This document shows, one piece after another, positions 39,578-56,005 of a stretch of 64,000 bases of DNA. The stretch is from an uncultured Bacteroidales bacterium (GTDB lineage: Bacteria > Bacteroidota > Bacteroidia > Bacteroidales > UBA932), in assembly GCA_944326225.1 (NCBI GenBank), contig CALVDI010000002.1, positions 30,298 through 94,297 of the forward strand, written 5' to 3'. The notes beneath the pieces were generated by a model. The model was not told the origin of the DNA, ran no database searches, and saw nothing but the letters and a program-made list of their open reading frames with translations. Position numbers and translations under genes: made by a program. Numbering within the stretch: position 1 is the first letter of the stretch; each line of letters starts with the position of its first letter.

Positions 39578-42241
39578 TCAGGCCTCTGTCAGGCTCTTGA
39601 TCATGCCGTTGAAAGCCTCGTTGGCGGTAAGTTCCTCCAGGGACAGGTGCATCCTGTATCTCCAGTAATGCCTGGGATTGGACGGCACGTTGATGCGCTC
39701 TGCTGCCGGATCCTGCGCCCTTATGCTTCCGTCTATTGACAGCCAGTCCTGCAGCGGCAGTATGGTCAGCATGGATGGACTGGAGGTGTGCAGCCTGAGA
39801 ATCTTCCCGCATAACCACGGCTCGCAGTAGTGGGGCGGCTCTCCGCTTTCATGCAGCATCTCGTGCCAGAAACGGGTGGACGCACTGCGGTCCTCCTCCC
39901 ACCAGGCCCTGAGGGTGCTGGTATCGTGAGTGCCGGTGGTGCAGACGCTCAGGTAGGGGTAGTGGGCCGGGTCTCCGAAGGCCTTCTCCGGATCCTTGGA
40001 CATCCTGAATATCTCCAGGGACAGCATCCGGAGATTGCGGAGTACTTCCGGTACGCAGTCCGGAATCATGCCCAGGTCCTCGGCGCAGGTGAGCATGTTG
40101 GTGGAGGATATCAGCACAGGCAGTCTGCGCAGGGCCGATTCTTTCCAGAAGTCGTTGTGTCTCTTGTAGAAGAAATGGTCGTATATCCGGTTGAACACTT
40201 CTTTCTGCTCTCCGGGCAGGTCTCGGTAGGAATAGGTGAACTGGGCGGATATCCTGGGGTGGAATTTTCCGGGCTGCCGCTCGTCTTCCAGGAACAGCAC
40301 TTCGGATACGAGGGCCATGAGACCGTCCTTTATATCGTCTTGTCCCGGGCCGAAATGCTCTTCTATCTTCCGCTGGGTGCTGAACTCCGGCTTGAGGGTG
40401 AAGACCTCGTACCGGTTGCTGTCAAGGTATTCCCTCATGACCGTGTCGGTCTTGTCCCCGAACATGTCCCGCAGCTGCCAATATCTTATGTACGGAGTGG
40501 CGTGTCTGGCGTAGTCGAAGTCGAATCCCCGGTCCCGCAGCTCCTCATAGCTCATCGGCAGGGCGGGAGAGAAGTGCCCCATGACGCCCTTGATCTGCCT
40601 GGACGGTATCTCCCAGATGCGGAAGAATCCCAGTACGTGGTCTATGCGGTAGGCGTCGAAATATTCGGCCATCTTGACAAACCGTTTCTTCCACCAGCTG
40701 TACTGCGTTTCGGCCATCTTGTCCCAGTTGTAGGTCGGGAATCCCCAGTTCTGTCCGTCAGCCGAGAAATCGTCTGGCGGTGCGCCGGCCTGTGAGCTCA
40801 TGTTGAACAGCTCCGGAGAGGCCCATGCGTCCGCGCTGTTGCGGGTTATGCCGATGGGGATGTCGCCTTTCAGGGCGATCCCGAGCGAATGCAGGTAATG
40901 TACGGAGTCCAGCAGTTGGCGGTGCAGGTGATACTGTACAAACAGATTATAGGATATCTCCGGGTATATGTCGCTGCCCTTAGTGTTGAGGCGGGTTATC
41001 AGCTCGGGGGTGCAAATGGACTCGTTACCCCATTTGGAGAAGTCAGCTGTGCCGTATTTGTCCCTGAGAGCGCAGAAAGTGCAGTAGGGCAGAAGCCAGT
41101 CCCTGTTTCTGTGATAGAATGACAGGAACTTGGGCTCGGCGAAGGTTTCCACTGCGTATGCCTGATATTGGAGTCTAAGATATTTGGTCTTTAAAGCCAG
41201 CACTTTCTCATAGTCGATGGCGGTGAGTGCGTCAAGGGCTTTACGCTCACGGCTGTAGGCTGCCCTGGCTCCAGGGTTTTTCATGGGGCCTATGGCAGTG
41301 ATGTTGATGTATATCGGGTGCAGGGCCATGACCGATATGCCGCCGTAAGGGTAGGAATCAGTCCAGGTTCCGGTTGAGGTGGTGTCGTTGACAGGAAGTA
41401 TCTGGACAATGCTCTGCCCTGTTGCCTTGGCCCAGTCTCCAAGAGCTTTCAGGTCGGTAAAGTCCCCTATACCGCAGCTGGTCGCGCTCCTGAGGGCGAA
41501 TACCGGTACAGCCGTTCCGTAGAATCTTGGATGCCCTGTTCTGAATGCGGCCATGGAATGCTCCACGGACCATGTCTGATGCTCCTTCAGAACCGGAACG
41601 CTCAGACGGCGGTTGTCTGTCTCTTCCCAGACGGTTTCCCCGTTGCGCGAGTTGTATTTTATGAATTTGTACTCGAAGGCATCCGCCAGTTTGTTTGCCG
41701 GCAGATGCACAACCCATCTTGATCCGTGCACGGGAGTCATGGCCGGTGCTTTCCCGGGATCCCAGGAACCGAGTATGGGAGTGTCGCCGCAAATCTTCAC
41801 GGTGCAGTCCGGCTCCACTGCGGGAGCGGTAACACGTATTATGAGTTCTTTTGAATGCAGGTGAGTCTGAGTGGCTTCATTGTGCCCGTGGGAGTAGAAT
41901 ATCTCCGAGAACGGGGCTGTCAGCAGCGGGGCGGACTCGGAATTGCCCTGCCATTCGTCCCTCAGAAACAGCTCCTTGGAGGCGCTGTTCAGACCGAGCG
42001 TCCTCTCCGGCCCTGCCTCATGGAATTCGCCTGCGTCATCGGATCTGACGAGGTATCTGTAGGAAAGGTTTCTCTCCTGGAGGGATGTGAGCTTTATGTC
42101 TTTCGTCCATGTTCCGCCTTCTGTCCAGGACATCGGGACTGCCTTTGAGGTGTCTCCCCCGCCAAGTTCCGGCAGAGAGCCGGTGATATACAGCCGCTGT
42201 CCCCACACGGTGTGGAAATTGATAAGAAAATGAATGACCAT
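39578..42241 (-). CDS. malQ: 4-alpha-glucanotransferase with two CBM20 starch-binding domains (GH77)
   Basis: 887 aa, cytoplasmic (no signal peptide). Two N-terminal CBM20 modules: residues about 1-100 (INFHTVWGQRLYITGSLPEL) and about 125-235 (RVTAPAVEPDCTVKICGDTP, with GSWDPGKAPAM). A GH77 barrel follows. The nucleophile is Asp534 in YRIDHVLGFF, the acid/base Glu721 in AEDLGMIPD and the third acid Asp773 in GTHDTSTLRAWW. It transfers maltodextrin segments between chains, channelling maltose and short glucans into glucose. The architecture (CBM20-CBM20-GH77) resembles plant DPE2 and some bacterial amylomaltases. It is encoded divergently from the sensor operon with overlapping promoters. Confidence 0.93.
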   Translation of the reverse strand: MVIHFLINFHTVWGQRLYITGSLPELGGGDTSKAVPMSWTEGGTWTKDIKLTSLQERNLSYRYLVRSDDAGEFHEAGPERTLGLNSASKELFLRDEWQGNSESAPLLTAPFSEIFYSHGHNEATQTHLHSKELIIRVTAPAVEPDCTVKICGDTPILGSWDPGKAPAMTPVHGSRWVVHLPANKLADAFEYKFIKYNSRNGETVWEETDNRRLSVPVLKEHQTWSVEHSMAAFRTGHPRFYGTAVPVFALRSATSCGIGDFTDLKALGDWAKATGQSIVQILPVNDTTSTGTWTDSYPYGGISVMALHPIYINITAIGPMKNPGARAAYSRERKALDALTAIDYEKVLALKTKYLRLQYQAYAVETFAEPKFLSFYHRNRDWLLPYCTFCALRDKYGTADFSKWGNESICTPELITRLNTKGSDIYPEISYNLFVQYHLHRQLLDSVHYLHSLGIALKGDIPIGITRNSADAWASPELFNMSSQAGAPPDDFSADGQNWGFPTYNWDKMAETQYSWWKKRFVKMAEYFDAYRIDHVLGFFRIWEIPSRQIKGVMGHFSPALPMSYEELRDRGFDFDYARHATPYIRYWQLRDMFGDKTDTVMREYLDSNRYEVFTLKPEFSTQRKIEEHFGPGQDDIKDGLMALVSEVLFLEDERQPGKFHPRISAQFTYSYRDLPGEQKEVFNRIYDHFFYKRHNDFWKESALRRLPVLISSTNMLTCAEDLGMIPDCVPEVLRNLRMLSLEIFRMSKDPEKAFGDPAHYPYLSVCTTGTHDTSTLRAWWEEDRSASTRFWHEMLHESGEPPHYCEPWLCGKILRLHTSSPSMLTILPLQDWLSIDGSIRAQDPAAERINVPSNPRHYWRYRMHLSLEELTANEAFNGMIKSLTEA

Positions 42242-42253
42242 CGCGCCTATTTT

Positions 42254-42285
42254 TTTGCAAAATTATCTAAAAATCCTTAATTTTA
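42254..42285 (+). promoter_or_regulatory. Promoter of the membrane protein-histidine kinase operon
   Basis: TTTG (42254-42257), a 20-base spacer, then TAATTTTA (42278-42285), seven of eight bases of TAnnTTTG. The ATG follows after 17 bases. It occupies nearly the same bases as the divergent malQ promoter. Confidence 0.62.
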
Positions 42286-42289
42286 CAGA
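42258..42289 (-). promoter_or_regulatory. Promoter of malQ
   Basis: On the minus strand TCTG (42289..42286), 20 bases, then an exact TAATTTTG (42265..42258). The ATG follows after 16 bases. Three of four bases of the -33 TTTG match. Confidence 0.6.
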
Positions 42290-42302
42290 AATATCTGAGA
42301 CT

Positions 42303-42698
42303 ATGAAACGGTTTTTCTCCATACTGGAAAGTCCTGGCCGGGACTTCCTCAAATCCAGTCTCATAGTGCTGGTCTTTGTGTTCGCACATGCCCTTACGTG
42401 CCTTCTGCTTCACGACACCAAGGTGGGAGACGGGATATTTCTGACCTGCCTTACGATAGGTATGGTGTATGCGTTGATAAGCTTTTACAGGGCCTCTTTC
42501 GACGTCTTTCTCGGACTGGCTTTCCTGGCCTGTTTCGCAGGGTTCTATATAGGGACGGAAGGGGCGGACCTGCTGGAGCGCTGGATACCGTCGTGGGGAG
42601 TGTGGGTCAACGTTATAGTCACGATGGTCACCACCGAACTTCTGGGTCTGATCATCATTCTGCTGATAAGAAAGAACTGGAATGCCGATAAGAGATAG
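42303..42698 (+). CDS. Small inner-membrane protein preceding the sensor kinase
   Basis: 131 aa from the ATG at 42303; a longer frame reaches into malQ. Four hydrophobic segments (SSLIVLVFVFAHALTCLL, GIFLTCLTIGMVYALISFY, DVFLGLAFLACFAGFYIG and VWVNVIVTMVTTELLGLIII) with small soluble loops. No family recognised. Its last 17 bases overlap the histidine kinase gene, so it is probably a membrane partner of the kinase, perhaps its sensory or stabilising subunit. That is inference from coupling only. Confidence 0.72.
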   Translation: MKRFFSILESPGRDFLKSSLIVLVFVFAHALTCLLLHDTKVGDGIFLTCLTIGMVYALISFYRASFDVFLGLAFLACFAGFYIGTEGADLLERWIPSWGVWVNVIVTMVTTELLGLIIILLIRKNWNADKR

Positions 42699-43728
42699 AG
42701 ACAGTCAGGTGTCGGCTCTGGATCTGGTGATAATAGCTGTTATCGTCCTTTTTTCCAGGGTGTTGATAGAAAAGGTGATGCCCTTGTTCTACGAGAGCTT
42801 CGGACTGTATTTCGGCGACTTTCTGTTCCAGACCCTGTCGAATTTTACACTTACGTTCGGGGCCGTGCTGGCGGACTTCCTGGTAGTGCGTATTCTGGTG
42901 CGCTGCTTTCCTTACGGAGGCCGCTTTATCATACGCTCTTTGGTAGAGGTCGCGGCCATATGCCTGGTGGCCTTTCTGGTCTCGTTGCTTATAAGGCTGG
43001 AACAACGCAGCGTGGCCGGCGGAGACTTCCGCATATTCGACCATCTGTTTTTGTTTACTTACGTCAGCAATCTGGTGTTCAATGCCGTGGTGATGCTGGT
43101 GACTGACCTGATTTTCTATTACCGCTGGTCCAACAGGCGGGCTGTGGCAGTTGAGGCAGAGAAACGGGCCAGAGCCAATTACCAGTATCAGCTTCTGAAA
43201 AGCGAGACCAACCCGCATTTCCTGTTCAACTGCCTGAACGTGCTCCAGTACCTCATACACGAGGACGCCGACAGGGCCAGTGATTATGCGGGGAAGCTGG
43301 CCGGGGTGTACCGCTATTTCCTGAAACTGGAGAAGAGCACGGTCGTCATGCTGGAGGAGGAGCTGGAGTTTGTCGGTAAGTACTGTGACCTGATGCGGGA
43401 GCGTTTCGGCTCAGCATTCGTGACGGACATAGATATTCCCCGGGAATACAATGAGGCCAGGATCATCCCGTGCGCCCTGCAGATGATGATAGAGAACGCG
43501 GTGAAGCACAATATCGTCAATTCGGAGAACCGGCTCAGGATAACCGTGCGTGCTGACAGCCGTTTCATCACGGTCTCCAACAATCTCAATCCCAAGCATC
43601 AGGCCGGGGATGCCAACGGTATGGGACTCAGGAATATAAGCCGTCAGTACGAGATGCTCTTCTCCCGCAGTGTGGAGGCCGGAGAGGACGGCGGTGAGTT
43701 CGTGGTCCGCATCCCTTTGATACTCTGA
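42682..43728 (+). CDS. LytS/YehU-type sensor histidine kinase
   Basis: 348 aa. An N-terminal membrane region with about four segments (LDLVIIAVIVLFSRVLI to VFNAVVMLVTDLIFYYRW, residues 13-148) lacks a large extracellular sensor domain. The His_kinase (PF06580) domain follows with phosphoacceptor His179 in NPHFLFNCLNVLQYL, an ATPase N-box segment CALQMMIENAVKHNIVNSE and a G-box GMGLRNISRQYEM. Kinases of this class work with LytTR regulators; the only such regulator in the window is encoded convergently right after it (eight bases between the ends). This supports them as a pair. Confidence 0.88.
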   Translation: MPIRDRDSQVSALDLVIIAVIVLFSRVLIEKVMPLFYESFGLYFGDFLFQTLSNFTLTFGAVLADFLVVRILVRCFPYGGRFIIRSLVEVAAICLVAFLVSLLIRLEQRSVAGGDFRIFDHLFLFTYVSNLVFNAVVMLVTDLIFYYRWSNRRAVAVEAEKRARANYQYQLLKSETNPHFLFNCLNVLQYLIHEDADRASDYAGKLAGVYRYFLKLEKSTVVMLEEELEFVGKYCDLMRERFGSAFVTDIDIPREYNEARIIPCALQMMIENAVKHNIVNSENRLRITVRADSRFITVSNNLNPKHQAGDANGMGLRNISRQYEMLFSRSVEAGEDGGEFVVRIPLIL

Positions 43729-43736
43729 CCGCTGTA

Positions 43737-44486
43737 TCAGGCACCTTCAATCCATTCGAGGAAGGACTGAACTCGGTCCCGGGGCACGATTATAGGCTCT
43801 ATGTTCCTGGGCGATACGGTGACTTTCAGACGGGAATTGAAGTATTTGGAGATGGTGTATATGGAGTCCATGCTGATGATGCACTTGCGGGATATCTTGT
43901 AGAATACGGACGGATCCAGTTCGTCGCCTATCATTACCAGGGACTCGTCAGTCATGTATTCCTTGCCGCTCCTGGTAACCAGGTATGTGGACTTGTCGTT
44001 GGAGTGGAAATAGGCTATGTCGCGTGTGTCTATGGCCAGTATTTGGCTGCCGAGTTTTATGGTATAGTGATGTTTGTAAGTCGGTTTTGCATAGGCAGTA
44101 ATATCCGGCTTGTCCTTTTTTGCGGCAGTTACCCCGCATAACTGCAGGCATCTCTCAACGGATTCCCTGAAAGCTCCGGACTCGATGGGCTTCATTAGAT
44201 AGTCGATGCACTTGACCTTGAAGGCATCCAGAGCATAGTCGGCGTATGCGGTGGTGATGATGACCGGACACCGGATGTCCGTCTGCCGGAAGATCTCGAA
44301 GCACTTGCCGTCGGACAGCTCCACGTCCATGAAGATCAGGTCCGGGCTGTTGTCCTGGAGGTACTTCGCGGCGGCCTTGACAGAGTCCAGTGCCCCGATG
44401 ATGTTGAAATCGGGGAAATACTGCTTTATCAGCCTTATGAGTATCTGCTGAGCGGGGAGCTCGTCTTCTATTATCAGGACATCCAT
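43737..44486 (-). CDS. LytTR-family response regulator
   Basis: 249 aa. The receiver domain starts MDVLIIEDELPAQQILIRL, with phosphoacceptor Asp54 in LIFMDVELSDGK, Thr in ITTAYADYALDAF and Lys in CIDYLMKPIES. A linker near 125 leads to a LytTR DNA-binding domain (about 145-245) with GSQILAIDTRDIAYFHSNDK, KISRKCIISMDSIYTISKYF and the closing PRDRVQSFLEWI. It is transcribed away from the MFS-susCDE operon, and a LytTR-type direct repeat lies in between. The partner kinase is most likely the one at 42682. It is a probable activator of the starch locus. Confidence 0.88.
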   Translation of the reverse strand: MDVLIIEDELPAQQILIRLIKQYFPDFNIIGALDSVKAAAKYLQDNSPDLIFMDVELSDGKCFEIFRQTDIRCPVIITTAYADYALDAFKVKCIDYLMKPIESGAFRESVERCLQLCGVTAAKKDKPDITAYAKPTYKHHYTIKLGSQILAIDTRDIAYFHSNDKSTYLVTRSGKEYMTDESLVMIGDELDPSVFYKISRKCIISMDSIYTISKYFNSRLKVTVSPRNIEPIIVPRDRVQSFLEWIEGA

Positions 44487-44494
44487 AACGGAGG

Positions 44495-44525
44495 CAAAGT
44501 TAAGACTAAAATCCCGTTTGTTAAA
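44495..44525 (-). promoter_or_regulatory. Promoter of the LytTR regulator gene
   Basis: On the minus strand TTTA (44525..44522), 19 bases, then an exact TAACTTTG (44502..44495). The ATG begins only eight bases after the -7 box, so the leader would be very short. Confidence 0.6.
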
Positions 44526-44533
44526 AAAATGTT

Positions 44534-44563
44534 ACAGTCCGTCAGTCTTTTTCTACAGTCTGT
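44534..44563. promoter_or_regulatory. Candidate LytTR operator (direct repeat)
   Basis: ACAGTCCGT (44534-44542) and ACAGTCTGT (44555-44563), separated by 12 bases, so the start-to-start distance is 21 bases, two helical turns. Both boxes fit the published LytTR half-site pattern (W-M-M-G-T-T-N-R-K) in eight of nine positions. The extended repeat TACAGTCYGTC is even longer. It lies 33 bases upstream of the MFS -7 candidate and 8 bases from the regulator's own -33 element. Confidence 0.65.
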
Positions 44564-44596
44564 CGGAAAGTATAATGATTAAAAGGTATACGGTGG

Positions 44597-44604
44597 TAAT
44601 TTTA
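44597..44604 (+). promoter_or_regulatory. Possible -7 element of the MFS-susCDE operon
   Basis: TAATTTTA matches TAnnTTTG at seven of eight bases, 24 bases before the MFS ATG. No TTTG-like -33 is found at 44572-44577 (TATAATGATT region), as expected of a promoter that needs an activator. Confidence 0.42.
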
Positions 44605-44628
44605 CATCACTTAAACTGACCGGTCATT

Positions 44629-45963
44629 ATGGAAAAGAAAAAGATGACTTTCTGGCAGATCTTCAACATGAGTTTCGGTTTTCTCGGGATTCAGTTCGGT
44701 CTAGCCCTGCAGAATGCCAATGTGAGCCGTATCCTGCAGTCTTTCGGCGCTGACGTGGAGCATCTGTCTTATTTCTGGCTGGCGGCCCCTGTCACCGGCA
44801 TGATAGTTCAGCCCATCATCGGGCATTACAGCGACCGTACGTGGTGCAGGCTGGGACGGCGGCGTCCGTATTTCCTGGCAGGAGCCATTCTGGCCTCCCT
44901 CATGCTGTTCCTGATGCCCAATTCCCCCTCGCTGGCGGGCCTGATGTCTCCGCTGCTGATAGGAGCCGGTATCCTGATGATCATGGATGCCTCCATCAAT
45001 GTGGCCATGGAGCCTTTCAGGGCTCTGGTGGCGGACAAACTGCCCTCAGAGCAGCGCACATTGGGATTCTCCATGCAGACATCCCTTATAGGTATCGGAG
45101 CTGTGGTCGGAGCCGTCCTGCCCTTTGTGCTGACCAACTGGTTCGGTATGTCCAATACCCCTGCGGTTGAGGGCGGTGTGGCCCCCAATGTCAGGGCTGC
45201 GTTCTATATCGGAGCGGCTGTGCTGCTCGTATGCGTACTGTGGACAGTGTGCAGCACTTCCGAGTATCCTCCCGAGCCCGGGACGGAGAAGAAAAAAGAC
45301 GGTGGTTTTCTGGAAATATTCAGGGACTTCGGCCGTATGCCCAGGACTATGGTGCAGCTCGGAGTGGTGCAGTTCTTCTCCTGGTTCGCGCTGTTCTCCA
45401 TGTGGGTGTACATGACTCCGGCCGTGGCCGAGCACTGCTACGGCACTGTGGACCGCGCCTCGGCTGCTTACGGTGATGCCGGGGACTGGGTAGGAGTCCT
45501 GCAGGGAGTCTACAACGGAGTGGCGGCAGTCTATGCCTTCCTGCTCCCGCTGATAGCCGCCAGGATAGGCCGCAAGGCCACTCACTCCCTCTCTCTGCTG
45601 TTGGGAGCCCTCGGTTTTGCCTCTTTCTTCATCTTCAAGAATCCCAATATGCTGGTCATATCCATGATAGGTGTGGGTATAGCATGGGGCAGCATCCTGG
45701 CCATGCCTTACTCAATCCTGGCCGGTTCGCTTCCGGCGCAGAAGATGGGCGTGTTCATGGGCATATTCAACTTCTTCATCACCATCCCGCAGGTATGCAA
45801 CGGTCTGCTCGGCGGAGTGCTGGTCAAGCATGTTTACGGCGGACATACCATATATGCTATGGTGTTCTCGGGGCTCTGTCTGCTGATAGCCGCGCTGTCA
45901 GTCCTGTTCGTGGAGGACAAGGATGACCCGGTGCAGCTGCGCCTCTTCGGCAATAGAAAGTAA
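44629..45963 (+). CDS. MFS transporter of the SLC45/GPH-like sugar family
   Basis: 444 aa, about 12 membrane segments. The start WQIFNMSFGFLGIQFGLALQ is characteristic of the sucrose/maltose-type MFS proteins, with IIGHYSDRTWCRLGRRRPYF between helices 2 and 3 (the MFS A-motif-like loop) and PFRALVADKLPSEQR near 126. It probably moves maltose or short maltodextrins across the inner membrane, being first in the operon with susCDE and the amylases. In B. thetaiotaomicron the sus cluster has no such gene. The gap to susC is 44 bases, and no promoter is visible in it. Confidence 0.87.
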   Translation: MEKKKMTFWQIFNMSFGFLGIQFGLALQNANVSRILQSFGADVEHLSYFWLAAPVTGMIVQPIIGHYSDRTWCRLGRRRPYFLAGAILASLMLFLMPNSPSLAGLMSPLLIGAGILMIMDASINVAMEPFRALVADKLPSEQRTLGFSMQTSLIGIGAVVGAVLPFVLTNWFGMSNTPAVEGGVAPNVRAAFYIGAAVLLVCVLWTVCSTSEYPPEPGTEKKKDGGFLEIFRDFGRMPRTMVQLGVVQFFSWFALFSMWVYMTPAVAEHCYGTVDRASAAYGDAGDWVGVLQGVYNGVAAVYAFLLPLIAARIGRKATHSLSLLLGALGFASFFIFKNPNMLVISMIGVGIAWGSILAMPYSILAGSLPAQKMGVFMGIFNFFITIPQVCNGLLGGVLVKHVYGGHTIYAMVFSGLCLLIAALSVLFVEDKDDPVQLRLFGNRK

Positions 45964-46007: not shown

Positions 46008-48980
46008 ATGAAAAGATTGATGACAGTGCTAATCTCGGTTACATTGCTCTCGCTGACCAGTGCTTTTGCCCAGTATACGGTGAAAGGCCGGGTGGTCGAT
46101 GCAATGGGCCCTGTAATCGGAGCAGCAGTCCTCGAACAGGGGACGCTTAATGGAACGGAGACAGACATGGACGGTTATTTTGAACTGACTGTGCCTTCCT
46201 CCTCATCGATTATCGAAGTAGTGCTAATCGGTTACAAGACGGTGGCGGTGCCTGCCGGAGAGGTCTCGGTTATCGTCCTGGAAGAGGACACTGAACTTCT
46301 GGACGAGGTAGTGGTTATCGGTTACGGTACGGTCAAGAAAGAGGACCTGACCGGTTCGGTGTCCACAGTCCGCGCCGACCAGCTGAACAAGGGCTCGATT
46401 ACCTCTCCTTCTGAATTGTTGAAAGGCAAGTCCGCCGGTGTCGTTATCACGGACGGAGACGGAGCACCCGGTTCTGCAGCCACTATCCGTATCCGCGGCG
46501 GTTCTTCCCTGTCGGCTGTCAATGACCCTCTGATCGTGATAGACGGTCTGCCTATCACCAACACAGGTATCAGCGGTGTCGCTGACCAGCTTTCAAGTAT
46601 CAACCCCAGCGATATCGAGTCATTTACAGTGCTGAAGGACGCATCGGCGACCGCCATCTACGGTTCGCGTGCATCCAACGGTGTGATCATCATCACCACA
46701 AAGAAGGGCAGCAAGTATGACTCGGCTGTGCCTCGTGTAAGTGCGGACTTTACCGCGTCCCTGTCTCAGAATACCAGATTCCTGGATGTGATGACCGGAG
46801 ACGAGATGAGGGCTGCGATGGCGCAGTACAGGGGCATCACTGATGTGGCGAATACCGACGACCCGGCCTATCTGGCGTTGGGAGATGCCAATACAGACTG
46901 GCAGAAAGAGATTTACCAGCTCGGTCAGAGCTATGAGGGAAATGTCAGCCTGCAGGGTAACTTCAAGTTCGGCAATGTCGGTTATATGCCTTACCGCGTG
47001 TCCGGAGGCTATATCAACGAAAAAGGTACGCTCAGGACTTCCAGCATGGAGAGGGGAACAGTCTCTTTGAACCTGACCCCTACGTTCTTCGACGACCATC
47101 TGACTATCTCTCTCAATGGTAAGGGAATGTTCCAGAAGAACCGTTTCGCCAACACGGCGGCCATCTCGGCGGCTGTAGAGTACGACCCTACCCAGCCTGT
47201 ATATGACGAGGACGGAAACTATACCGCATGGATGGGCTCGGACGGTTTCAATACTCAGTCCACCGTCAATCCTCTGGCTGCCCTTTATGAGAGGGATGAC
47301 CGTTCCAAGGCTTCCCGTTTCATCGGTAACGCACAGATTGACTATAAGATCCACGGTCTTGAGGATCTGAGGTTGAACCTCAACCTCGGTATGGACTATT
47401 CGCATTCGGACGGAACTGTCAATGTTCCCTACGATGCAGAGCAGTCATGGCACAACCAGACTCAGAACGGACGCGGTCTGTACAATCCCTACAACCAGAC
47501 CAAACGTGACATGACCCTTGAGGCCTACGCGGACTACACCAAGGAGATAAATAAGCACAGCTTCGGAGTGATGGCCGGTTATTCATGGCAGCATTTCTAT
47601 ACGGAAGACTACAGTCTCTCCATGACACAGCCCGACCCCGTGGCCGGCAGTCAGGAGACCCTGACAGAGTTTACCAATGCCACCGAGTACTACCTCGTGT
47701 CATTCTTCGGCCGTGCGAACTACAACTATGACGACCGTTATATGATTACGGCCACTGTCCGCTGGGACGGAACATCCCGTTTCACCAACAACAAGTGGGG
47801 CTTCTTCCCCTCGGTGGCATTGGGCTGGAATATCAAAGGCGAGGATTTCCTGAAGAATTCCAAGGCCGTCTCCGACCTAAAGCTCCGTCTGAGCTGGGGC
47901 CAGACAGGACAGCAGGACCTCAATGCGGGAGACTACCCGGCTCTCGCCACCTATATGTACAACTCCAATGGAAGTATGTATATGTTCGGCGGTCAGATGA
48001 TTGTCCCTATCAAGCCCAACGGATACAATGCCGATCTCAAATGGGAGACCACCACTACATACAACGTGGGTATTGATTACGGCTTCTTCGACGGCAGACT
48101 CTACGGTGCCCTGGATGTGTACTACAGGGAGACGACCGACCTGCTGAACAGTATTCCCGTACCTGCCGGAGCCAACCTTACCAACTATTTGACAGCCAAT
48201 ATCGGCAGCCTGGTAAACAAGGGAGTTGAGTTTGAGATAGGTGCTGTAGCCCTCCAGACTCAGGACTGGAACTGGACCATCGGAGCCAATTTCGCATACA
48301 ATGACAACAGGATTACCAAGCTGACCACCAATGATGATCCTGCCTATACCGGAGTTGAGACAGGAGGCATCAGCGGCGGTGTCGGCAACAACGTTCAGAG
48401 ACATATGGTGGGTTATGCGGCCAATACCTTCTATCTCTATGAGCAGATCTATGACGAGAACGGTGCTCCCATACCGGGTGCATACGTGGACCAGAACGGA
48501 GACGGTGTGATAGACTCTTACGACCGAGTATTCAACGGTCAGGCCGCTCCCAAGTGGACTATCGGTTTCAATACCTCCCTGTCCTGGAAGAACCTGACCC
48601 TGGCCATCGCCGGTCACGGCAACCTCGGTCAGATGGTGTACAACAACAACGCTTCCCGTCTTTCGCTGCTCTCCGACCTGTGGACCAATAATTTCGTCCG
48701 CAACTGTATCGGCAATGCCATGTCCCTGGGCTTCAACAACGCAGCTTATCTGTCCGACTACTGGCTGGAGGACGGCTCGTTCTTCAAGATTGACCGTATC
48801 ACCCTCAGCTATCTGTTTGACCTGGACAAGGGCGGTGCTCTCAGTATCTTCGGAACAGTACAGAACGTGGCTACATTTACCAAATACTCAGGTATAGACC
48901 CCGAGGTGTTCAACGGTATCGACAACAACCTGTATCCCCGTCCCCGTACTTACATCATCGGTCTCAAGTACAATTTCTAA
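46008..48980 (+). CDS. susC: SusC/RagA-family TonB-dependent outer-membrane transporter
   Basis: 990 aa. Signal MKRLMTVLISVTLLSLTSAFAQ, then a CarboxypepD-regulatory-like domain (TVKGRVVDAMGPVIGAAVLE, about 23-105), a TonB-box-like stretch and the plug with ELLDEVVVIGYGTVKKEDLTG, IRIRGGSSLSAVNDPLIVID and ASATAIYGSRASNGVIII (about 100-230). The beta barrel ends in TYIIGLKYNF. It imports oligosaccharides from the partner SusD encoded next, using TonB energy. No N-terminal STN domain is present, so it is not wired to an anti-sigma relay. Sugar specificity is inferred as starch from the neighbouring amylases. Confidence 0.95.
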   Translation: MKRLMTVLISVTLLSLTSAFAQYTVKGRVVDAMGPVIGAAVLEQGTLNGTETDMDGYFELTVPSSSSIIEVVLIGYKTVAVPAGEVSVIVLEEDTELLDEVVVIGYGTVKKEDLTGSVSTVRADQLNKGSITSPSELLKGKSAGVVITDGDGAPGSAATIRIRGGSSLSAVNDPLIVIDGLPITNTGISGVADQLSSINPSDIESFTVLKDASATAIYGSRASNGVIIITTKKGSKYDSAVPRVSADFTASLSQNTRFLDVMTGDEMRAAMAQYRGITDVANTDDPAYLALGDANTDWQKEIYQLGQSYEGNVSLQGNFKFGNVGYMPYRVSGGYINEKGTLRTSSMERGTVSLNLTPTFFDDHLTISLNGKGMFQKNRFANTAAISAAVEYDPTQPVYDEDGNYTAWMGSDGFNTQSTVNPLAALYERDDRSKASRFIGNAQIDYKIHGLEDLRLNLNLGMDYSHSDGTVNVPYDAEQSWHNQTQNGRGLYNPYNQTKRDMTLEAYADYTKEINKHSFGVMAGYSWQHFYTEDYSLSMTQPDPVAGSQETLTEFTNATEYYLVSFFGRANYNYDDRYMITATVRWDGTSRFTNNKWGFFPSVALGWNIKGEDFLKNSKAVSDLKLRLSWGQTGQQDLNAGDYPALATYMYNSNGSMYMFGGQMIVPIKPNGYNADLKWETTTTYNVGIDYGFFDGRLYGALDVYYRETTDLLNSIPVPAGANLTNYLTANIGSLVNKGVEFEIGAVALQTQDWNWTIGANFAYNDNRITKLTTNDDPAYTGVETGGISGGVGNNVQRHMVGYAANTFYLYEQIYDENGAPIPGAYVDQNGDGVIDSYDRVFNGQAAPKWTIGFNTSLSWKNLTLAIAGHGNLGQMVYNNNASRLSLLSDLWTNNFVRNCIGNAMSLGFNNAAYLSDYWLEDGSFFKIDRITLSYLFDLDKGGALSIFGTVQNVATFTKYSGIDPEVFNGIDNNLYPRPRTYIIGLKYNF

Positions 48981-49001: not shown

Positions 49002-50639
49002 ATGAAAAAATATACAACAGTATTAGTATCATTGATGGTATCGGCCGTGGCGCTGTTCACGCCTTCCTGTGTCAATGACCTGGATGTGTCTCCCATAGAT
49101 CCCGATATCAATTCTCCCGACAAGGTGCTGAACAGTATCGAGGCTTTCCAGCAGCTTCTTGCAAAGTGCTACGGCTCGCTGGCAGTGAGCGCGTCCGAAG
49201 GACCTGACTCGTCTCCGGACATCAGCGGTATCGACGGCGGCTTCGGTCAGTATATGAGGGCCCTTTTCAATGTCTGCACACTGCCTACCGACGAGGCCAG
49301 CTGTACATGGAACGACCAGACCATCAGGTCTCTGCACGGTCTGAGCTGGACTACCTCCGATGTGTTCGTGACAGCGATGTTCTCGCGTATCTACTATCAG
49401 ATAGGTCTGTGCAACGAGTTCATCCGTCAGGCTCATGCCGCTCCCGCTGACCTTCAGGGAGCCGAGATGGACTATATGATAGCCCAGGCCAGGGCACTCA
49501 GGGCCTTGAGCTACTATCATGCCATCGACCTGTTCGGCAATGTGCCGTTTGCTACCGAGGAAGACCCGATCAGTGCCACTGAAGGCCCTGACCAGGTGTC
49601 CCGTTATCAGCTCTACGAGTGGCTGGTGGACGAGATAGGCGGGGAGAACGGTTTCCGCAAGGACCTGCGTCCCGCCGCCGGTACAGAGTATGGCCGCTGC
49701 AGCCAGGAGTTCGCCACCATGCTGCTGGCCAAGCTGTACCTGAACTCGCAGATATTCACCAACTGCGATGATCCCAAGTACGGCGGAGAAGGCCGTCCGG
49801 CCATTGCCGGCGAATGGGACAAGTGCATAGAGGAGTGCCGCAGCATTATCAGCTCCTATCCTCTGGATACACCTTATCCCAATCTGTTCAGTGCAGACAA
49901 CAATCTCTTCAACGAGATTATATTCGCTGTCCAGAGCGACGCTGACATGATCCAGTCCTACGGAAATACCAATTTTGTCATTAAGTCCTCTATCGTCTCC
50001 GGCAACAGCGCATGGCAGGCGGCTCTCGGAGTCAATGACGGCTGGGGCGGACTCGTGGTTACGGCTCAGCTGATAGACCTGTTCGCAGGCAATGAAGAGA
50101 CTGACGCCAGGTATATCTTCACTGACGGAGTGGAGTTCGGAGACCCTCATATCAAGAACGTGCTGGATCAGTCCGACTTTACCAACGGCTACTGCCAGAT
50201 GAAGTTCACCAACCTCAATCACGACGGGACCAATATCAGCAGTACGGCAGGCTATCCCAATACAGACTATCCTATATTCAGGGCTTCCGATGCCTACCTG
50301 ATGCTGGCGGAGGCGCAGCTTCGCAGAGGAAGCATTGACGCCGAAGGACTGGAAGCATTCAATGCAGTCCGTGAGAGAGCCGGTCTGGAGCCGCTGTCTA
50401 CAGTTACTCTCGACGACATCATCGATGAGCGGGGACGTGAGTTTTACTGGGAGAACATGCGGCGTCAGGACCTGATCCGGTTCGGACTGTTCACTACCGA
50501 TGATTATGTGTGGGAATGGAAAGGCGGTACGTATGACGGCCAGGGCGTGGACGATCATTTCAACCTGTTCCCCATACCTACGACCGAGATCAATGCCAGC
50601 GGCAAGCTGGAACAGAATCCGGGATACGGCGGAATGTAA
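49002..50639 (+). CDS. susD: SusD/RagB-family outer-membrane starch-binding lipoprotein
   Basis: 545 aa. The lipoprotein signal MKKYTTVLVSLMVSAVALFTPSC ends in Cys23. Family hallmarks are AQARALRALSYYHAIDLFGNVPF (about 165-187, the TPR-like helical core), MLLAKLYLNSQIFTN near 240, a PIFRASDAYLMLAEAQLRRG block near 425 and the closing ENMRRQDLIRFGLF with NLFPIPTTEINAS. It forms the lid of the SusC transporter at the cell surface. It follows susC by 21 bases and is followed by susE after 25. Confidence 0.94.
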   Translation: MKKYTTVLVSLMVSAVALFTPSCVNDLDVSPIDPDINSPDKVLNSIEAFQQLLAKCYGSLAVSASEGPDSSPDISGIDGGFGQYMRALFNVCTLPTDEASCTWNDQTIRSLHGLSWTTSDVFVTAMFSRIYYQIGLCNEFIRQAHAAPADLQGAEMDYMIAQARALRALSYYHAIDLFGNVPFATEEDPISATEGPDQVSRYQLYEWLVDEIGGENGFRKDLRPAAGTEYGRCSQEFATMLLAKLYLNSQIFTNCDDPKYGGEGRPAIAGEWDKCIEECRSIISSYPLDTPYPNLFSADNNLFNEIIFAVQSDADMIQSYGNTNFVIKSSIVSGNSAWQAALGVNDGWGGLVVTAQLIDLFAGNEETDARYIFTDGVEFGDPHIKNVLDQSDFTNGYCQMKFTNLNHDGTNISSTAGYPNTDYPIFRASDAYLMLAEAQLRRGSIDAEGLEAFNAVRERAGLEPLSTVTLDDIIDERGREFYWENMRRQDLIRFGLFTTDDYVWEWKGGTYDGQGVDDHFNLFPIPTTEINASGKLEQNPGYGGM

Positions 50640-50664: not shown

Positions 50665-51795
50665 ATGATGAAAAAGATTTTAAATACTGTATTGGTGGTG
50701 TCGGCATTGCTGCTTACGGCCTGCACTGTGGAGAAAGGACCTGTGTTCAATCCTGAAGATGCAGTGCCTTCCGTCCTTGAACCAATAGACGAGAGCTACG
50801 AGCTGGCAGACTCGGTTGAGTCTTTCTTCTCGCTGAATTTCACGCCTACAGACTTCGGTGTGGAGGTGGCCCGTTCCTATACGGCTTATGTGGATCTTGC
50901 AGGCAGCAGCTTTGCGAACCGTCAGGCAATAGGAACTCTCAACGGTACGGTCGGAGATGAGCCGTTGTCAATGGTAATCGGAACAGCTGACTTCAACGGG
51001 GCCGTCCTGGGCCTGGGAGCCGCTTTCGGCGAGCCTGTGGATGTGGAAATATATGTGGTCGCCTCCATTATGGGAGAATCCAGTGTAGTGGCCGGCACAG
51101 AAGTGGCCTCCAACCCGATAGCCACGACAGTAACTCCTTATGATATGGCCAAGGTATATCCTAAGGTATATGTTATCGGAGACTATTGCGGTTGGGATCA
51201 CAGTCAGACTCTCTTCCTGTACAGCTATGCCGAGGACGAGGAGAATTATGTTGGTGTGATTGACTTCGGTGAAGGCTATGAGACCAATGGTTTCAAGCTG
51301 ACAGGAGACGCCAACTGGGACAACGGCAACTGGGGCTCAGGAAGTATGACTTCAACCGATCCCGAAGCTCCTTCCATCACTCTGTGGGATGACGGAGGCA
51401 GCGGCAACATCACAAACTATTCGACTTACCGTTACTACAGCTTCCATTTTGTCAAGTCATCCCTGACTCTTAATATGAACAAGGGCTTCAATCAGGTCGG
51501 CATCGCCGGTGACCTTACGGGATGGGCTGACGGAGCTGATATCGTCATGACACAGATGCGCTCCGACCAGAGATTCTATGCCGATGTCGAGTTCCCCGCT
51601 GCCGGAGGATTCAAGTTCAGGCTTGACGGTCTGTGGGATACCAACTGGGGCGGAACAGTCGACGCGCCTCTCTCACAGGGCGGTGACAATATAAGCATAG
51701 AGGCCGGTAACTACCGTATCTATCTTGACCTCAACGACTGGGACAATCCTACAGCTGTCATCAGCGCGGAGGATTACGGTGCGCCTGTAGAGTAA
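50665..51795 (+). CDS. susE: SusE-like outer-membrane starch-binding lipoprotein
   Basis: 376 aa. Signal MMKKILNTVLVVSALLLTAC with lipobox LTAC (Cys20). An N-terminal Ig-like domain (about 30-155) precedes two starch-binding modules: about 165-270 (KVYVIGDYCGWDHSQTLFLY) and about 275-370 (NQVGIAGDLTGWADGADIVM), each with the aromatic pair expected for glucan stacking. SusE and SusF share this layout; with only one of the two present here and two modules (not three), SusE is the better name. A strong hairpin with a T run follows the gene. Confidence 0.87.
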   Translation: MMKKILNTVLVVSALLLTACTVEKGPVFNPEDAVPSVLEPIDESYELADSVESFFSLNFTPTDFGVEVARSYTAYVDLAGSSFANRQAIGTLNGTVGDEPLSMVIGTADFNGAVLGLGAAFGEPVDVEIYVVASIMGESSVVAGTEVASNPIATTVTPYDMAKVYPKVYVIGDYCGWDHSQTLFLYSYAEDEENYVGVIDFGEGYETNGFKLTGDANWDNGNWGSGSMTSTDPEAPSITLWDDGGSGNITNYSTYRYYSFHFVKSSLTLNMNKGFNQVGIAGDLTGWADGADIVMTQMRSDQRFYADVEFPAAGGFKFRLDGLWDTNWGGTVDAPLSQGGDNISIEAGNYRIYLDLNDWDNPTAVISAEDYGAPVE

Positions 51796-51846: not shown

Positions 51847-51862
51847 AAATACTTATTTGGTT

Positions 51863-53902
51863 ATGAGAACAAGTGTATCCTATATAATCCTGATGTGGAT
51901 GTCTGCTGCCGCACTGCTGTCCTGCCGGCCTGATGCTCCGGGCGAGGACGGCGGCCAAGAGGAGGGACAGCGTGTGACGGCCTCTCTTCCCGAATGGGAC
52001 GGAGTAAAGGCCGGTGATATCACATATCAGCTTCTGGTATACTCTTTTGCGGATTCGGACGGAGACGGCATAGGGGATTTTCGGGGTATCATAGACAAGC
52101 TGGACTATCTGGACTCGCTGGGAGTCTCTGCTTTGTGGCTGTCTCCGATACATCCGGCAATGTCCTATCACGGCTATGACATAACGGACTACGGGACTGT
52201 CAATCCGGAGTTCGGGACAATGGATGATTTCAAGGCCCTGGTGGAGGCGGCGCACAACCGCGGTATCAGGATATACATGGATTACGTGCTCAACCATACA
52301 GGCAGTGATCATCCCTGGTTCCTGGAGGCCTGTGAGAGCGGGGACAGCCCGTACAGGGACTTCTACATTTTCTCGGAGAATCCCGCCGCGGATATAGAGG
52401 CCGGCAATATCCCGATGATAGCCACGGAGGGTTCCGGAGGATATGACGCCGGACAGTGGTTCGTGGCAGGAAATTCCGCAAAAGGGGTCATGGAGTTCGT
52501 ATTGGACTGGTCGGATCCGGCTCATCCTTTACTTACCGTGACGGAGTCGGACGGCCCGGCGGACAGTGAGAACACCGCTCCGGATACTGACAGCGACAAG
52601 TATCTGTATATGGGTGACCCGGCGCGTTATGTAAAGTTCCATGATGACGGGAACGGGCTTTATTCCCTGGCGGTGGACTTCGATTCTCCATGGGGTTTTC
52701 TGATACGGACGGAGGGAACGGACGACTGGACTCCGGGTACCAAGTACGGGGCGGCAGATGCCGCGGACGCGGTAATAGAGTACGGTGTGGAGTATCCTCT
52801 GTTTACATCAAGTGACAACAACGCAGTCCATGATCTGCTCATGCCCGGTACTCTCTACTACCATTCCCACATGTGGACCAGCTGGTTCGCTGACCTCAAC
52901 TACGGTCCTGCGGAAAGTGCGGAGCAGTCCCCGGCGTTTGAGGAGATGGTGCGCATAGGCAGACAGTGGATAGATGCCGGGATAGACGGTATGCGTCTGG
53001 ATGCGGTGAAACATATTTATCATAACGCCGGCTCCAACGAGAATCCGGTCTTCCTCGGAAAGTTCTACGAGGCCATGGACGGTTATTATTCCGGAGACGG
53101 GCCTTTCTATATGGTCGGGGAGGTATTCTCCGAGCATAACGAGGTGGCTCCATATTACGCCGGCTTGCCCGCTGCCTTTGATTTCTCTTTCTGGTGGAGG
53201 CTGTCGGCGGCCATTAACGGGGGTGTCGGGAATACGTTTGTCAGGGATATTCTGTCCTATCAGGATGAATATGCAGCAGTCCGTCCGGACTATATCGAGG
53301 CGACCAAGCTCTCCAACCACGATGAGAACCGTGCGGGAAGTGATCTCGGCGGTTCGACTGCGAAAATGAAGCTGGCAGGGGCAGTGTTGCTGACAGCCGG
53401 CGGTGCACCTTATATATATTATGGTGAGGAGCTGGGATATACCGGAGTCAAGGATCAGGGCGATGAGTATGTAAGGACTCCTATGAATTGGGGAGACAGC
53501 TATACGCCAGACCTGTACGCGTATGCAGGAAAGTCTGATGTCAGCCTCGGAGCGGCTTCTGTCATGGAACAGACCGCAGATTCGGCGTCGGTGTTCCGGG
53601 TGTACAAGGATTTTGCGCTGGCGCGCAATGCTGTTCCCGCACTTGCAAATGGAAAGATGGTGCGTCATGACCTGTACAATGAGTCTTTGACGGCCCTGCC
53701 TGCTCTATGCGCCTGGATTATGGACTACGAAGGAGACCGCGTGCTTGTCCTGCACAATTTCAGCGGTTCGGAGATTAATTTCCTGCTGCACGACGCGGTC
53801 AATGAGGCCGTGGCGGTGCAGGGTGAGGTATTCAAGGACGAAAGCGGCTCTCAGCCCCGCTTGAGGATGGGAGCGTATTCGTCCGTGGTATTTGATTTGT
53901 AA
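51863..53902 (+). CDS. susG: SusG-like surface alpha-amylase (GH13) with an inserted CBM58-like module
   Basis: 679 aa from the ATG at 51863 (a TTG two codons earlier is not preferred). Lipoprotein signal with LLSC near residue 21. GH13 start YQLLVYSFADSDGDGIGDF. Catalytic residues: nucleophile Asp380 (MRLDAVKH), acid/base Glu420 (VGEVFSE) and Asp487 (SNHDENR). Between the first barrel strands and the catalytic half sits an about 120-residue insertion (about 200-320: DSDKYLYMGDPARYVKFHD, SPWGFLIRTEGTDDW) resembling the CBM58 of SusG. It cuts starch at the cell surface to products small enough for SusC. The closing domain is the usual GH13 beta cap. Confidence 0.9.
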   Translation: MRTSVSYIILMWMSAAALLSCRPDAPGEDGGQEEGQRVTASLPEWDGVKAGDITYQLLVYSFADSDGDGIGDFRGIIDKLDYLDSLGVSALWLSPIHPAMSYHGYDITDYGTVNPEFGTMDDFKALVEAAHNRGIRIYMDYVLNHTGSDHPWFLEACESGDSPYRDFYIFSENPAADIEAGNIPMIATEGSGGYDAGQWFVAGNSAKGVMEFVLDWSDPAHPLLTVTESDGPADSENTAPDTDSDKYLYMGDPARYVKFHDDGNGLYSLAVDFDSPWGFLIRTEGTDDWTPGTKYGAADAADAVIEYGVEYPLFTSSDNNAVHDLLMPGTLYYHSHMWTSWFADLNYGPAESAEQSPAFEEMVRIGRQWIDAGIDGMRLDAVKHIYHNAGSNENPVFLGKFYEAMDGYYSGDGPFYMVGEVFSEHNEVAPYYAGLPAAFDFSFWWRLSAAINGGVGNTFVRDILSYQDEYAAVRPDYIEATKLSNHDENRAGSDLGGSTAKMKLAGAVLLTAGGAPYIYYGEELGYTGVKDQGDEYVRTPMNWGDSYTPDLYAYAGKSDVSLGAASVMEQTADSASVFRVYKDFALARNAVPALANGKMVRHDLYNESLTALPALCAWIMDYEGDRVLVLHNFSGSEINFLLHDAVNEAVAVQGEVFKDESGSQPRLRMGAYSSVVFDL

Positions 53903-53914
53903 AATAAAGACAAT

Positions 53915-56005
53915 ATGACTCATAGAAAAAATGCGATGATGCTGGTGCCGCTGTTGGCTGTTATGGCGGTATCGTGCTCTTATAGAGTGGACAGGGCTCC
54001 GTTTTTCAACGAGGAGTCGGCTCCGGCCATGCCCTGTCTGATTTCAGGGGATACCACTCTCCTGATAGTCAGGGATTATTTCCCCAGGATAGAAAAGGTG
54101 GATGCTGTGAGCAGTGAGGACTACACTGTAATACCTGTGTCAGTGGATGATATGGATACTGTGATGCTTGTCGCAGGTCCTTCTTCGCGCAACGTGTCAA
54201 CGGTCAGAGTGACATCCGGAGAAGAGAGCGGAGTGATCGTGCTGAAGTGGAAGACACCGGCCGGAGCAGCCGTTCCGTCAATGGCTACCATAGGCAGCAA
54301 TATGGGGGGCAGGGAATTTACAGTGAGGGCACAGAATTCTCCGGCAGGTTATCTTGTCTTGTGGCAGAACACCTTACTTGACCATAAATTCATGTCTTAC
54401 CGCAAGGACGGGGAGTTCACCGTGCATATTCCCGACAATGCAGAGGACATGGAACGCTCCTATATCCGTATCTATACCTACAATGCCGGGGGAGCCGGAA
54501 GCGATATCCTCGTGCCCGTGCGCTACGGGAGAGTGATGGCTGCGGCTTCGGAACTGGAAAGGACTGACCGTCAAGGCTGGATTATGTACCAGATAATGGT
54601 GGACCGTTTCGTCAACGGCAATACCGCCAACGACTGGAAAGCCAACCGTCCCGACGTGCTTCCTAAGGCCGATTATTACGGAGGTGACCTGGCCGGCATA
54701 GACGCCAGGCTGCGGGAGGGGTATTTCGATACACTCGGAGTGAACACCCTGTGGATATCTCCGATAACCCAGAACCCTTATACCGTCTGGGGACTCAACA
54801 AGGATCCATATACCCGCTTTACCGGATACCACGGCTACTGGCCGGTGTATATGACCAAGATTGATCCCCGTTACGGTACGCCGGAGGAACTGCGCGGCCT
54901 GATAGCCGACGTACACGGGGATGACAAGAACATCATCCTGGACTATGTGGCCAATCATCTGCATGTTGAGAGCCCGCTTCTTCAGGCCCATCCGGACTGG
55001 AAGACGCCTGAGCTCACCCCGGACGGGCGGCCCAATCTGGAACTATGGGACGAGTTCCGTCTGACTACATGGTTCGACAGGCATATTCCGACCCTGGACC
55101 TGGAGAGAGAGGATGTCAATGAGCCGATGACAGACTCCGCGGTGTTCTGGATGCGGGAGTATGACTTCGACGGATTCCGCCATGACGCTACCAAGCATAT
55201 TCCGGAGGTGTACTGGCGCAAACTGACCCGCAAGCTTCTGGAGCAGGTGCCCGACCGCAGCGTGTTTCAGATAGGGGAGACGTACGGCTCTCCGGAACTT
55301 ATCTCGTCCTATGTCCGTACAGGGATGCTGGACTGTCAGTTTGACTTCAATATCTATGATACATACATCTGGGCAACGTCCACACCGGAAGGCTCATTCG
55401 CCGACCTGGCAGGGACGATAGACGCCAGCCTGCATACCTACGGCTATCACAATCTGATGGGTGTCATCTCCGGCAACCATGACCGGGCCCGTTACGTGTC
55501 CATAGTGGGCGGTGACCTGATTCCCGGCGAGGACTACAAGGCCGCCGGCTGGAAACGCGAGATAGGCGTGAGCGATACTGTGGCCTACCGCAAGCTGGCC
55601 ATGCTGCACGCCATGAACATGACCCTGCCCGGCATACCTGTCATCTATACCGGTGACGAATGGGGACAGCCCGGAGGCAATGATCCGGACAACCGCCGCT
55701 GGGCTCAGTTCGAGCCGCGCAACAGGCATGAGGCCGATGTATTTGACACGGTACGTGCCCTTACTGCGGAACGCTCCTCCAGTATGTCTCTGCTTTACGG
55801 AGACTGGTACCTGCTGTCCGCTGAGAAGGATTACCTGGCCTATATGCGGGTCTATATGGGCGAGTATGTGCTTGTGGCCCTGAACAAGTCTTCCGAGCCG
55901 GTACGCAAAGTATTCGACCTGCCGTTCGGACTGCAGTATGACGGCTCCGGCTCAGTGGCTGTGGAGACCGCGCCTTTTTCATTCAGTATAGTCAATTCAA
56001 AATAA
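53915..56005 (+). CDS. Surface GH13 glycosidase with an about 210-residue N-terminal region
   Basis: 696 aa. Lipoprotein signal (MTHRKNAMMLVPLLAVMAVSC, Cys21). The first about 210 residues before the barrel form two beta-rich domains; the second (about 120-200) is like an early-set/CBM48-type fold (AGYLVLWQNTLLDHKFMSY). The barrel starts WIMYQIMVDRFVNGNTAND. Catalytic residues Asp424 (FRHDATKH), Glu455 (IGETYGS) and Asp523 (SGNHDRA) are all present. It resembles cyclomaltodextrinase/neopullulanase-type GH13 enzymes that keep a WISPITQNPYTVWG loop. It probably degrades branched or cyclic glucans at the surface; the exact specificity is unknown. Confidence 0.87.
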   Translation: MTHRKNAMMLVPLLAVMAVSCSYRVDRAPFFNEESAPAMPCLISGDTTLLIVRDYFPRIEKVDAVSSEDYTVIPVSVDDMDTVMLVAGPSSRNVSTVRVTSGEESGVIVLKWKTPAGAAVPSMATIGSNMGGREFTVRAQNSPAGYLVLWQNTLLDHKFMSYRKDGEFTVHIPDNAEDMERSYIRIYTYNAGGAGSDILVPVRYGRVMAAASELERTDRQGWIMYQIMVDRFVNGNTANDWKANRPDVLPKADYYGGDLAGIDARLREGYFDTLGVNTLWISPITQNPYTVWGLNKDPYTRFTGYHGYWPVYMTKIDPRYGTPEELRGLIADVHGDDKNIILDYVANHLHVESPLLQAHPDWKTPELTPDGRPNLELWDEFRLTTWFDRHIPTLDLEREDVNEPMTDSAVFWMREYDFDGFRHDATKHIPEVYWRKLTRKLLEQVPDRSVFQIGETYGSPELISSYVRTGMLDCQFDFNIYDTYIWATSTPEGSFADLAGTIDASLHTYGYHNLMGVISGNHDRARYVSIVGGDLIPGEDYKAAGWKREIGVSDTVAYRKLAMLHAMNMTLPGIPVIYTGDEWGQPGGNDPDNRRWAQFEPRNRHEADVFDTVRALTAERSSSMSLLYGDWYLLSAEKDYLAYMRVYMGEYVLVALNKSSEPVRKVFDLPFGLQYDGSGSVAVETAPFSFSIVNSK

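Follow-up and report, generated by a model that had tools for sequence, protein, structure and literature searches.

The sus locus is a model for polysaccharide use by gut Bacteroidota, and its control is described as depending on SusR or on hybrid systems. In the uncultured Bacteroidales bacterium studied here, a Sus-type operon lies next to genes for a histidine kinase and a response regulator with a LytTR domain, which raises the question of what controls the operon. The window, that is, the whole stretch of DNA analyzed, is 64,000 nucleotides long, and its locus was compared with loci of related genomes, which are numbered with the prefix L.

Genes of the locus and its putative sensor

The genes that bear on the question are the following.

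39578..42241, minus strand: GH77 4-alpha-glucanotransferase with CBM20, beside the TM154 and kinase genes
42303..42698, plus strand: TM154, a four-helix membrane protein; the gene overlaps the kinase gene
42682..43728, plus strand: histidine kinase of 348 aa (PF06580) with four predicted N-terminal TM helices; convergent with the regulator gene
43737..44486, minus strand: response regulator of 249 aa; receiver domain (PF00072) and LytTR domain (PF04397), both above cut-off
44629..45963, plus strand: MFS sugar transporter, first gene of the operon; resembles GPH/sucrose symporters, far below the family cut-off
46008..48980, plus strand: SusC-like TonB-dependent receptor (domain match)
49002..50639, plus strand: SusD-like protein (domain match)
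50665..51795, plus strand: SusE-like protein (domain match)
51857..53902, plus strand: SusG-like alpha-amylase with CBM58 (domain match, SusG C-terminal domain included)
53915..56005, plus strand: alpha-amylase family (GH13) enzyme (domain match)
56015..57340, plus strand: alpha-amylase family (GH13) enzyme (domain match)
57359..59308, plus strand: cyclomaltodextrinase-like GH13 enzyme (domain match)

The joint presence of SusC, SusD, SusE and a SusG-like amylase identifies a Sus-type starch locus. A GH77 gene is also found near the LytTR regulator in many relatives. A head-to-head overlap exists between the open frame of GH77, with its start at 42241, and that of TM154, at 42234. The stretch 42234-42303 contains -7-like elements in both directions and, by eye, no LytTR unit.

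The regulator belongs to the LytTR response regulators, as it combines receiver and LytTR domains with a conserved phospho-acceptor Asp, Thr and Lys (D54, T79 and K99), which are invariant in 17 aligned rows. In a profile search of PDB sequences, the alignments among the matches listed cover the receiver domain and provide nothing on DNA contacts. The kinase matches PF06580 with 75.4 bits against a cut-off of 25.2. This is its only match in Pfam at E <= 10 (HMMER filters apply), and no 5TMR-LYT sensor was detected. LytS-like kinases possess a 5TMR-LYT input domain (PMC10653868). The initial annotation had described a LytS/LytTR pair; the regulator half of that description stands, with matches to PF00072 and PF04397, whereas "LytS" is too specific for a PF06580 kinase that lacks a 5TMR-LYT match. 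Judged by its domain matches, the system is LytTR by membership and LytS-like in its catalytic domain only.

TM154 has no family in Pfam or NCBIfam. Its open frame extends over 42234-42698, and the likely start is at 42303, where the protein begins with a conserved MKRFF. Distant loci mostly encode a longer kinase, whose N-terminus is related to TM154 (profile comparison P = 2.8e-17). The same comparison of TM154 with the N-terminus of window-type kinases gives P = 0.49, and with that of the MFS transporter P = 0.33. Past the TM154-like stretch, the fused kinase and the N-terminus of the window kinase show no detectable similarity (P = 0.046). Residues F25, H29, L47, T51, G80, G84, T107, T111 and G115 are invariant in 29 rows of free and fused forms. 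The structure model of TM154 is confident, with a pLDDT of 88.6 and four helices, and its search against the PDB returned no match at E <= 0.001; the model of the fused kinase is poor (mean pLDDT 62.5). The fusion in relatives and the gene order suggest that TM154 and the kinase may function as one sensor. Kinase and regulator genes converge in the window as well as in L002-L013; in the other sus-linked loci showing both, the two genes share one direction. A local inversion may therefore have split them.

A direct repeat in the divergent gap

The gap between the regulator gene and the MFS gene (44487-44628) measures 142 bases, as the initial annotation had it. The direct repeat that it reported there is likewise present: ACAGTCCGT at 44534-44542 and ACAGTCTGT at 44555-44563 are 12 bases apart and 21 bases from start to start. 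The tenth base, C (44543 and 44564), extends both units and is kept in relatives. The gap contains the following elements.

44495..44502, minus strand: candidate -7 element of the regulator gene, TAACTTTG, assigned by eye from the general consensus
44513..44522, plus strand: putative third unit, CCCGTTTGTT, weaker, in register 21 bp before unit 1, with 5/7 core bases
44534..44543, plus strand: putative operator unit 1, ACAGTCCGTC, aligned with homologous units of relatives
44555..44564, plus strand: putative operator unit 2, ACAGTCTGTC, starting 21 bp after unit 1
44597..44604, plus strand: candidate -7 element of the MFS-sus operon, TAATTTTA, with 5/6 fixed bases of TAnnTTTG, 32 bp after unit 2

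The LytTR consensus is [TA][AC][CA]GTTN[AG][TG], and both units match it at 8 of 9 positions, the number given in the initial annotation. They differ from the core of the GTDB family, RTYCRTC, at position 6 (C for T). The consensus of -7 elements is TAnnTTTG. If such elements are centered at about -7, the operator pair would extend over roughly -74 to -44. The 32 bp between unit 2 and the -7 candidate contain no TTG, consistent with the earlier placement of the repeat just upstream of a -7 element without a -33 element. In the -7 element of the regulator gene, TAnnTTTG is preserved among the Coprenecus relatives inspected and the two nn positions are variable.

LytTR sites share a common layout without a common consensus, and their target promoters contain two repeats of 9-11 bp separated by a spacer of 11-13 bp (PMC4847170). 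The window repeat obeys this rule, and its unit length and spacer fit known LytTR sites (PMC4847170, PMC6193735). The pattern of the window pair has one match in the 64-kb window and none in 100 dinucleotide shuffles, and one match in the 1,994,415 bases of the assembly, which is 83% complete. When three mismatches were allowed, the assembly gave 13 matches, compared to 19 for a reversed-pattern control; no wider regulon is therefore detectable in it, and no further targets are claimed.

Spacing and promoter distance in related loci

A scan of genome contigs with the regulator as query yielded 33 loci, and the named regulator relatives are almost wholly from metagenome-assembled genomes (MAGs). 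Thirteen loci from Coprenecus, other Bacteroidales MAGs and one genome labelled Alistipes (L002-L014) encode regulators with 65-100% identity to that of the window. The MFS gene is divergent from the regulator gene in 13/13 of them, and SusC is located beyond the MFS in all 12 that reach that far, L002 comprising the start of the MFS only. Ten distant loci (L015, L016, L018-L022, L025-L027), with 39-45% identity, have a kinase-regulator pair beside the MFS, which is followed by SusC. The DNA before the MFS contains paired units at 21 bp in 10/10 of these distant loci. Unit sequences of the Coprenecus type are variable (ACAATTCGTC, ACGATTCGTC, ACGGTCCGTC and others) at a constant spacing, and the unit ACCGTTCGTC of some distant loci agrees with the LytTR consensus at 9/9 positions. 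In a motif-free self-match, the distance of 21 scores clearly highest in the distant set (mean 8.7; next 7.1; median 6.2). Its lead is marginal among the Coprenecus promoters, where 21 has a mean of 7.5 and 46 follows with 7.375 (median 5.9).

A matrix of the pair was trained on eight Coprenecus-type promoters and applied to 15 other sus-linked loci, of which the divergent ones were scored over the 200 bp before the MFS. The 21-bp pair is detected in 14/15 at p <= 0.022 (dinucleotide shuffles). For the fifteenth, L079, the scored stretch excluded unit 1, and the full gap gives p = 0.0005 (mononucleotide shuffles). The 11 control loci are LytTR relatives not beside MFS or SusC, scored on one strand over the 200 bp that precede the farthest in-frame kinase ATG, with L083, L029, L033 and L034 left out; p is below 0.09 in none of them. 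The mean matrix score over the 15 loci is 15.0 at a spacing of 21; the runner-up, 8.3, is at 42, double that spacing, in keeping with three-unit arrays. The place of the third unit has a TTGTT ending in 7/8 training promoters, and has at least 6/7 core bases in 13/32 aligned relatives.

The distance from unit 2 to the -7 element, 32 bp in the window, is 32 or 33 bp in the other seven training promoters. It is 32 bp in 8/10 distant divergent loci and 31 bp in L015; the scripted pattern found no -7 element in L016, and inspection by eye locates one with one mismatch at 32 bp. The best-scoring pair of L081 has its -7 element at 53 bp, and by eye one more unit follows 21 bp downstream, at a distance of 32 bp from the -7 element. 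In L076, L078 and L079, inspection by eye shows octamers at 32 bp that differ from the -7 consensus by one or two mismatches. At least three units are arrayed both in L081 (11686-11777) and in the divergent gap of L016, most of them keeping the 21-bp register, with a unit nearer the promoter in L081 and an additional off-register unit in L016. A palindrome-like sequence, CGTTTTTTTAAAACG, is positioned between unit 2 and the -7 element in L018, L019, L020 and L025, and could mark a binding site for a second regulator.

At the level of the order, 258/393 genomes have a regulator relative at E <= 1e-35, a threshold that also admits other LytTR regulators, as MFS or SusC is found in 7/13 stretches examined at length. 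Within the GTDB family of the window, 94/199 genomes match at E <= 1e-50, and a gap between 3.3e-91 and 1.7e-78 separates two groups. The upper group provided 43 orthologue loci outside the genus of the window, that is, all those listed except G008 (= L081), with L116 and L117 taken as the genomes of L018 and L019. The lower group provided 17 more distant LytTR loci out of about 57 listed rows, mostly from its top. The MFS is contained in the fetched stretch of 40/43 orthologue loci, and neither MFS nor SusC occurs in any of the 17 more distant loci. We defined a composite as a pair of units 21 bp apart (RTYCRTC, at most one mismatch in the 14 core positions) followed 31-34 bp on by a -7 element with at most one mismatch. 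It is present in 28/43 orthologue loci, compared to 0/17 of the more distant ones; the loci share descent, several pairs being near-identical, so that these counts are not independent events.

Spacing 21 yields 32 composites, and the other spacings from 15 to 30 yield 0-3. Within 260 bp upstream of the MFS and on its strand are 28 of the 32, in 27 of the 40 MFS loci, and their -7 elements are offset by 32 bp (25 composites), 33 bp (2) or 31 bp (1). The composites of L127, L142 and L156 are located elsewhere and resemble background, and that of L154 is close to the end of a contig, where no MFS was seen. The combination (21, 32) ranks first among the 288 pairs of spacing and offset scored over the 40 promoters, with a mean of 17.85; the next reaches 15.95, and the median is 13.22. 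At the strict cut the composite is absent from 15/43 orthologue loci, several of which carry units degenerated to core scores of 4-6 out of 7, and some of which end at a contig edge. One of the stretches, L155 (G483 contig 4), has a second orthologous regulator copy near a SusC/SusD-like pair, without MFS and without a composite. The spacers were aligned for 32 of the 40 promoters, forced to the 21/32 geometry and with a few rows out of register, and no column of this alignment exceeds 0.83 bits; together with the lack of TTG in the window spacer, this means that no conserved -33 element is seen. The 21-bp pair also occurs in four loci of two further GTDB families (L076, L078 and L082 in f3; L079 in f108). 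Conservation in syntenic loci had been put forward as a check of the proposed regulation, and the pair and its distance to the -7 element are indeed kept despite dissimilar spacers, and were not found beside the non-sus LytTR relatives compared.

Proposed control of the operon

The reading that we favor, with a probability of about 0.86, is that the repeat serves as operator for the adjacent LytTR regulator, which would receive its signal from the kinase and TM154 and activate the MFS-susCDE-amylase operon. The genes, the operator pair, its fixed geometry and its co-occurrence with the regulator clade and the operon are computed here. The comparison of loci strongly supports the predicted operator and its target, and the conserved pair and -7 distance in syntenic loci speak for the LytTR regulation of the MFS-sus operon that the initial annotation had suggested.

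The promoters in the window are divergent and the third unit is close to the -7 element of the regulator gene, so the operator might serve the regulator's own gene and not the sus operon. However, regulator and MFS are on the same strand in 27/40 family loci, and 16 of these 27 have the composite directly before the MFS; the divergent family loci have it in 11/13. Where a same-strand locus has the composite, the regulator gene is the first of the two. The order in L076, L078, L079 and L082 is TM154, kinase, regulator and sus genes, with the 21-bp pair between the regulator and the sus operon. A pair that follows the regulator gene and precedes the sus operon cannot serve the regulator's own upstream promoter, and its presence there indicates that the operator serves the sus operon, not just the regulator. 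The fixed distance also runs to the -7 element of the operon. Autoregulation in place of control of the operon thus seems very improbable, and the operator may serve both the regulator gene and the operon. The opposite sign of control, in which the regulator would bind the units and repress the operon, has a similarly small chance: the sign cannot be proved from position alone, but the site is upstream of the -7/-33 region without overlapping it, there is no -33 element, and activation is described for BtsR at btsT and for the LRS regulators at their own promoters. It is from the operator position and the missing -33 element only that we infer activation.

The repeat could also be bound by a different regulator, such as SusR, an AraC-type HTCS or a Crp-like protein, with the LytTR gene a mere neighbor. 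AraC-type sites are likewise direct repeats about 21 bp apart. The known sus regulators are SusR and HTCS (PMC3878776). Nevertheless, the site tracks the LytTR clade in the family survey, and the centers of predicted SusR sites are 67 or 77 bp apart (PMC3878776, section 7), compared to 21 bp in the window. A search of the 83% complete assembly for the Y_Y_Y domain gave no match. In the genus, 11/19 genomes match and 5 are over the cut-off; three over-cut-off proteins, in L176, L178 and L179, were considered as regulators and rejected, as Pfam shows no DNA-binding domain in them. They consist of Y_Y_Y, fn3-like and other sandwich-type domains and have, by eye, lipoprotein-like starts. On the clade tracking, the site spacing and the Y_Y_Y search, we regard a different regulator as a highly unlikely explanation. 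Two-copy short repeats are common, and the repeat might be a chance resemblance; its absence from 100 shuffles and the conservation of a fixed geometry across three GTDB families refute this, and leave chance a negligible probability.

For the preferred reading, activation by the LytTR regulator, we infer the following course. The membrane kinase, in partnership with TM154, would sense a signal tied to the supply of starch or maltodextrin and phosphorylate the regulator at D54. Two tandem units, and probably a third, would then be occupied by regulator molecules along one face of the helix, at a spacing of 21 bp or two helical turns. With 32 bp between the end of the promoter-proximal unit and the -7 element, the occupied pair would be positioned just upstream of the would-be -33 element. 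From there it might recruit RNA polymerase to a promoter that lacks a -33 element, and thereby turn on the MFS-susCDE-amylase operon.

Known systems resemble the window locus in part. The BtsS/BtsR-btsT and YpdA/YpdB-yhjX systems of E. coli likewise combine a membrane kinase with a LytTR regulator, and YpdB uses a paired direct repeat before one transporter gene, like that of the window (PMC4847170, PMC10653868, PMC5552118). BtsS has a 5TMR-LYT domain and binds pyruvate (PMC10653868), whereas the window kinase has no 5TMR-LYT match and is encoded with TM154. The E. coli targets are a transporter gene, whereas for the Bacteroidales locus an MFS-sus operon is predicted as target. In Bacteroides thetaiotaomicron, SusR controls susC-susD-amylase starch genes of the kind predicted as target here, but is one membrane protein and not a two-component LytTR system. 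The HTCS of Bacteroides polysaccharide utilization loci likewise signal by histidine kinase, but each is a single protein that joins a large periplasmic sensor to an AraC-like output (PMC3878776), whereas the window has separate kinase and LytTR regulator genes and no Pfam sensor domain in the kinase. Neither the site spacing of SusR nor the design of HTCS fits the window locus. The LRS of Streptococcus mutans have 9-bp repeats mostly 12 bp apart just upstream of the promoter and a membrane protein partner, as here, and their repeats are about 10 bp above the -35 element, at a distance to the promoter similar to that of the window pair (PMC6193735). However, LRS are described as distinct from two-component systems and have a membrane inhibitor (PMC6193735), whereas the window encodes a kinase as well as a receiver domain.

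The open-access literature searched yielded no account of a sus locus under LytTR control. PMC5320581, PMC7440613 and PMC11278836 do not describe a system of the window type in the parts consulted, the nearest content in PMC5320581 being a Roseburia arabinoxylan locus with a LytTR regulator. The Bacteroidales family of the window appears to rely on an ordinary two-component system of the LytTR type, with a rigid layout of units 21 bp apart and 32 bp to the -7 element. This layout makes prediction of regulator targets possible in genomes of the family, and offers a candidate for a portable inducible promoter. It is conceivable, though somewhat doubtful, that a lineage of gut Bacteroidales has placed starch use under the LytTR type, for which the literature searched gives no sus example, and that TM154 and the PF06580 kinase form a new intramembrane sensor, perhaps with the MFS as co-sensor, that replaces a periplasmic sugar-binding domain. 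The question raised is what a kinase without a recognized periplasmic sensor domain senses.

The triad of TM154, kinase and regulator is also encoded in L080 (G041), with no MFS or SusC in the 15-kb stretch analyzed, and may therefore have other targets in the family of L080. The assembly of the window contains two LytTR genes; the only other one found, L044 (G000 contig 5), also adjoins a kinase gene.
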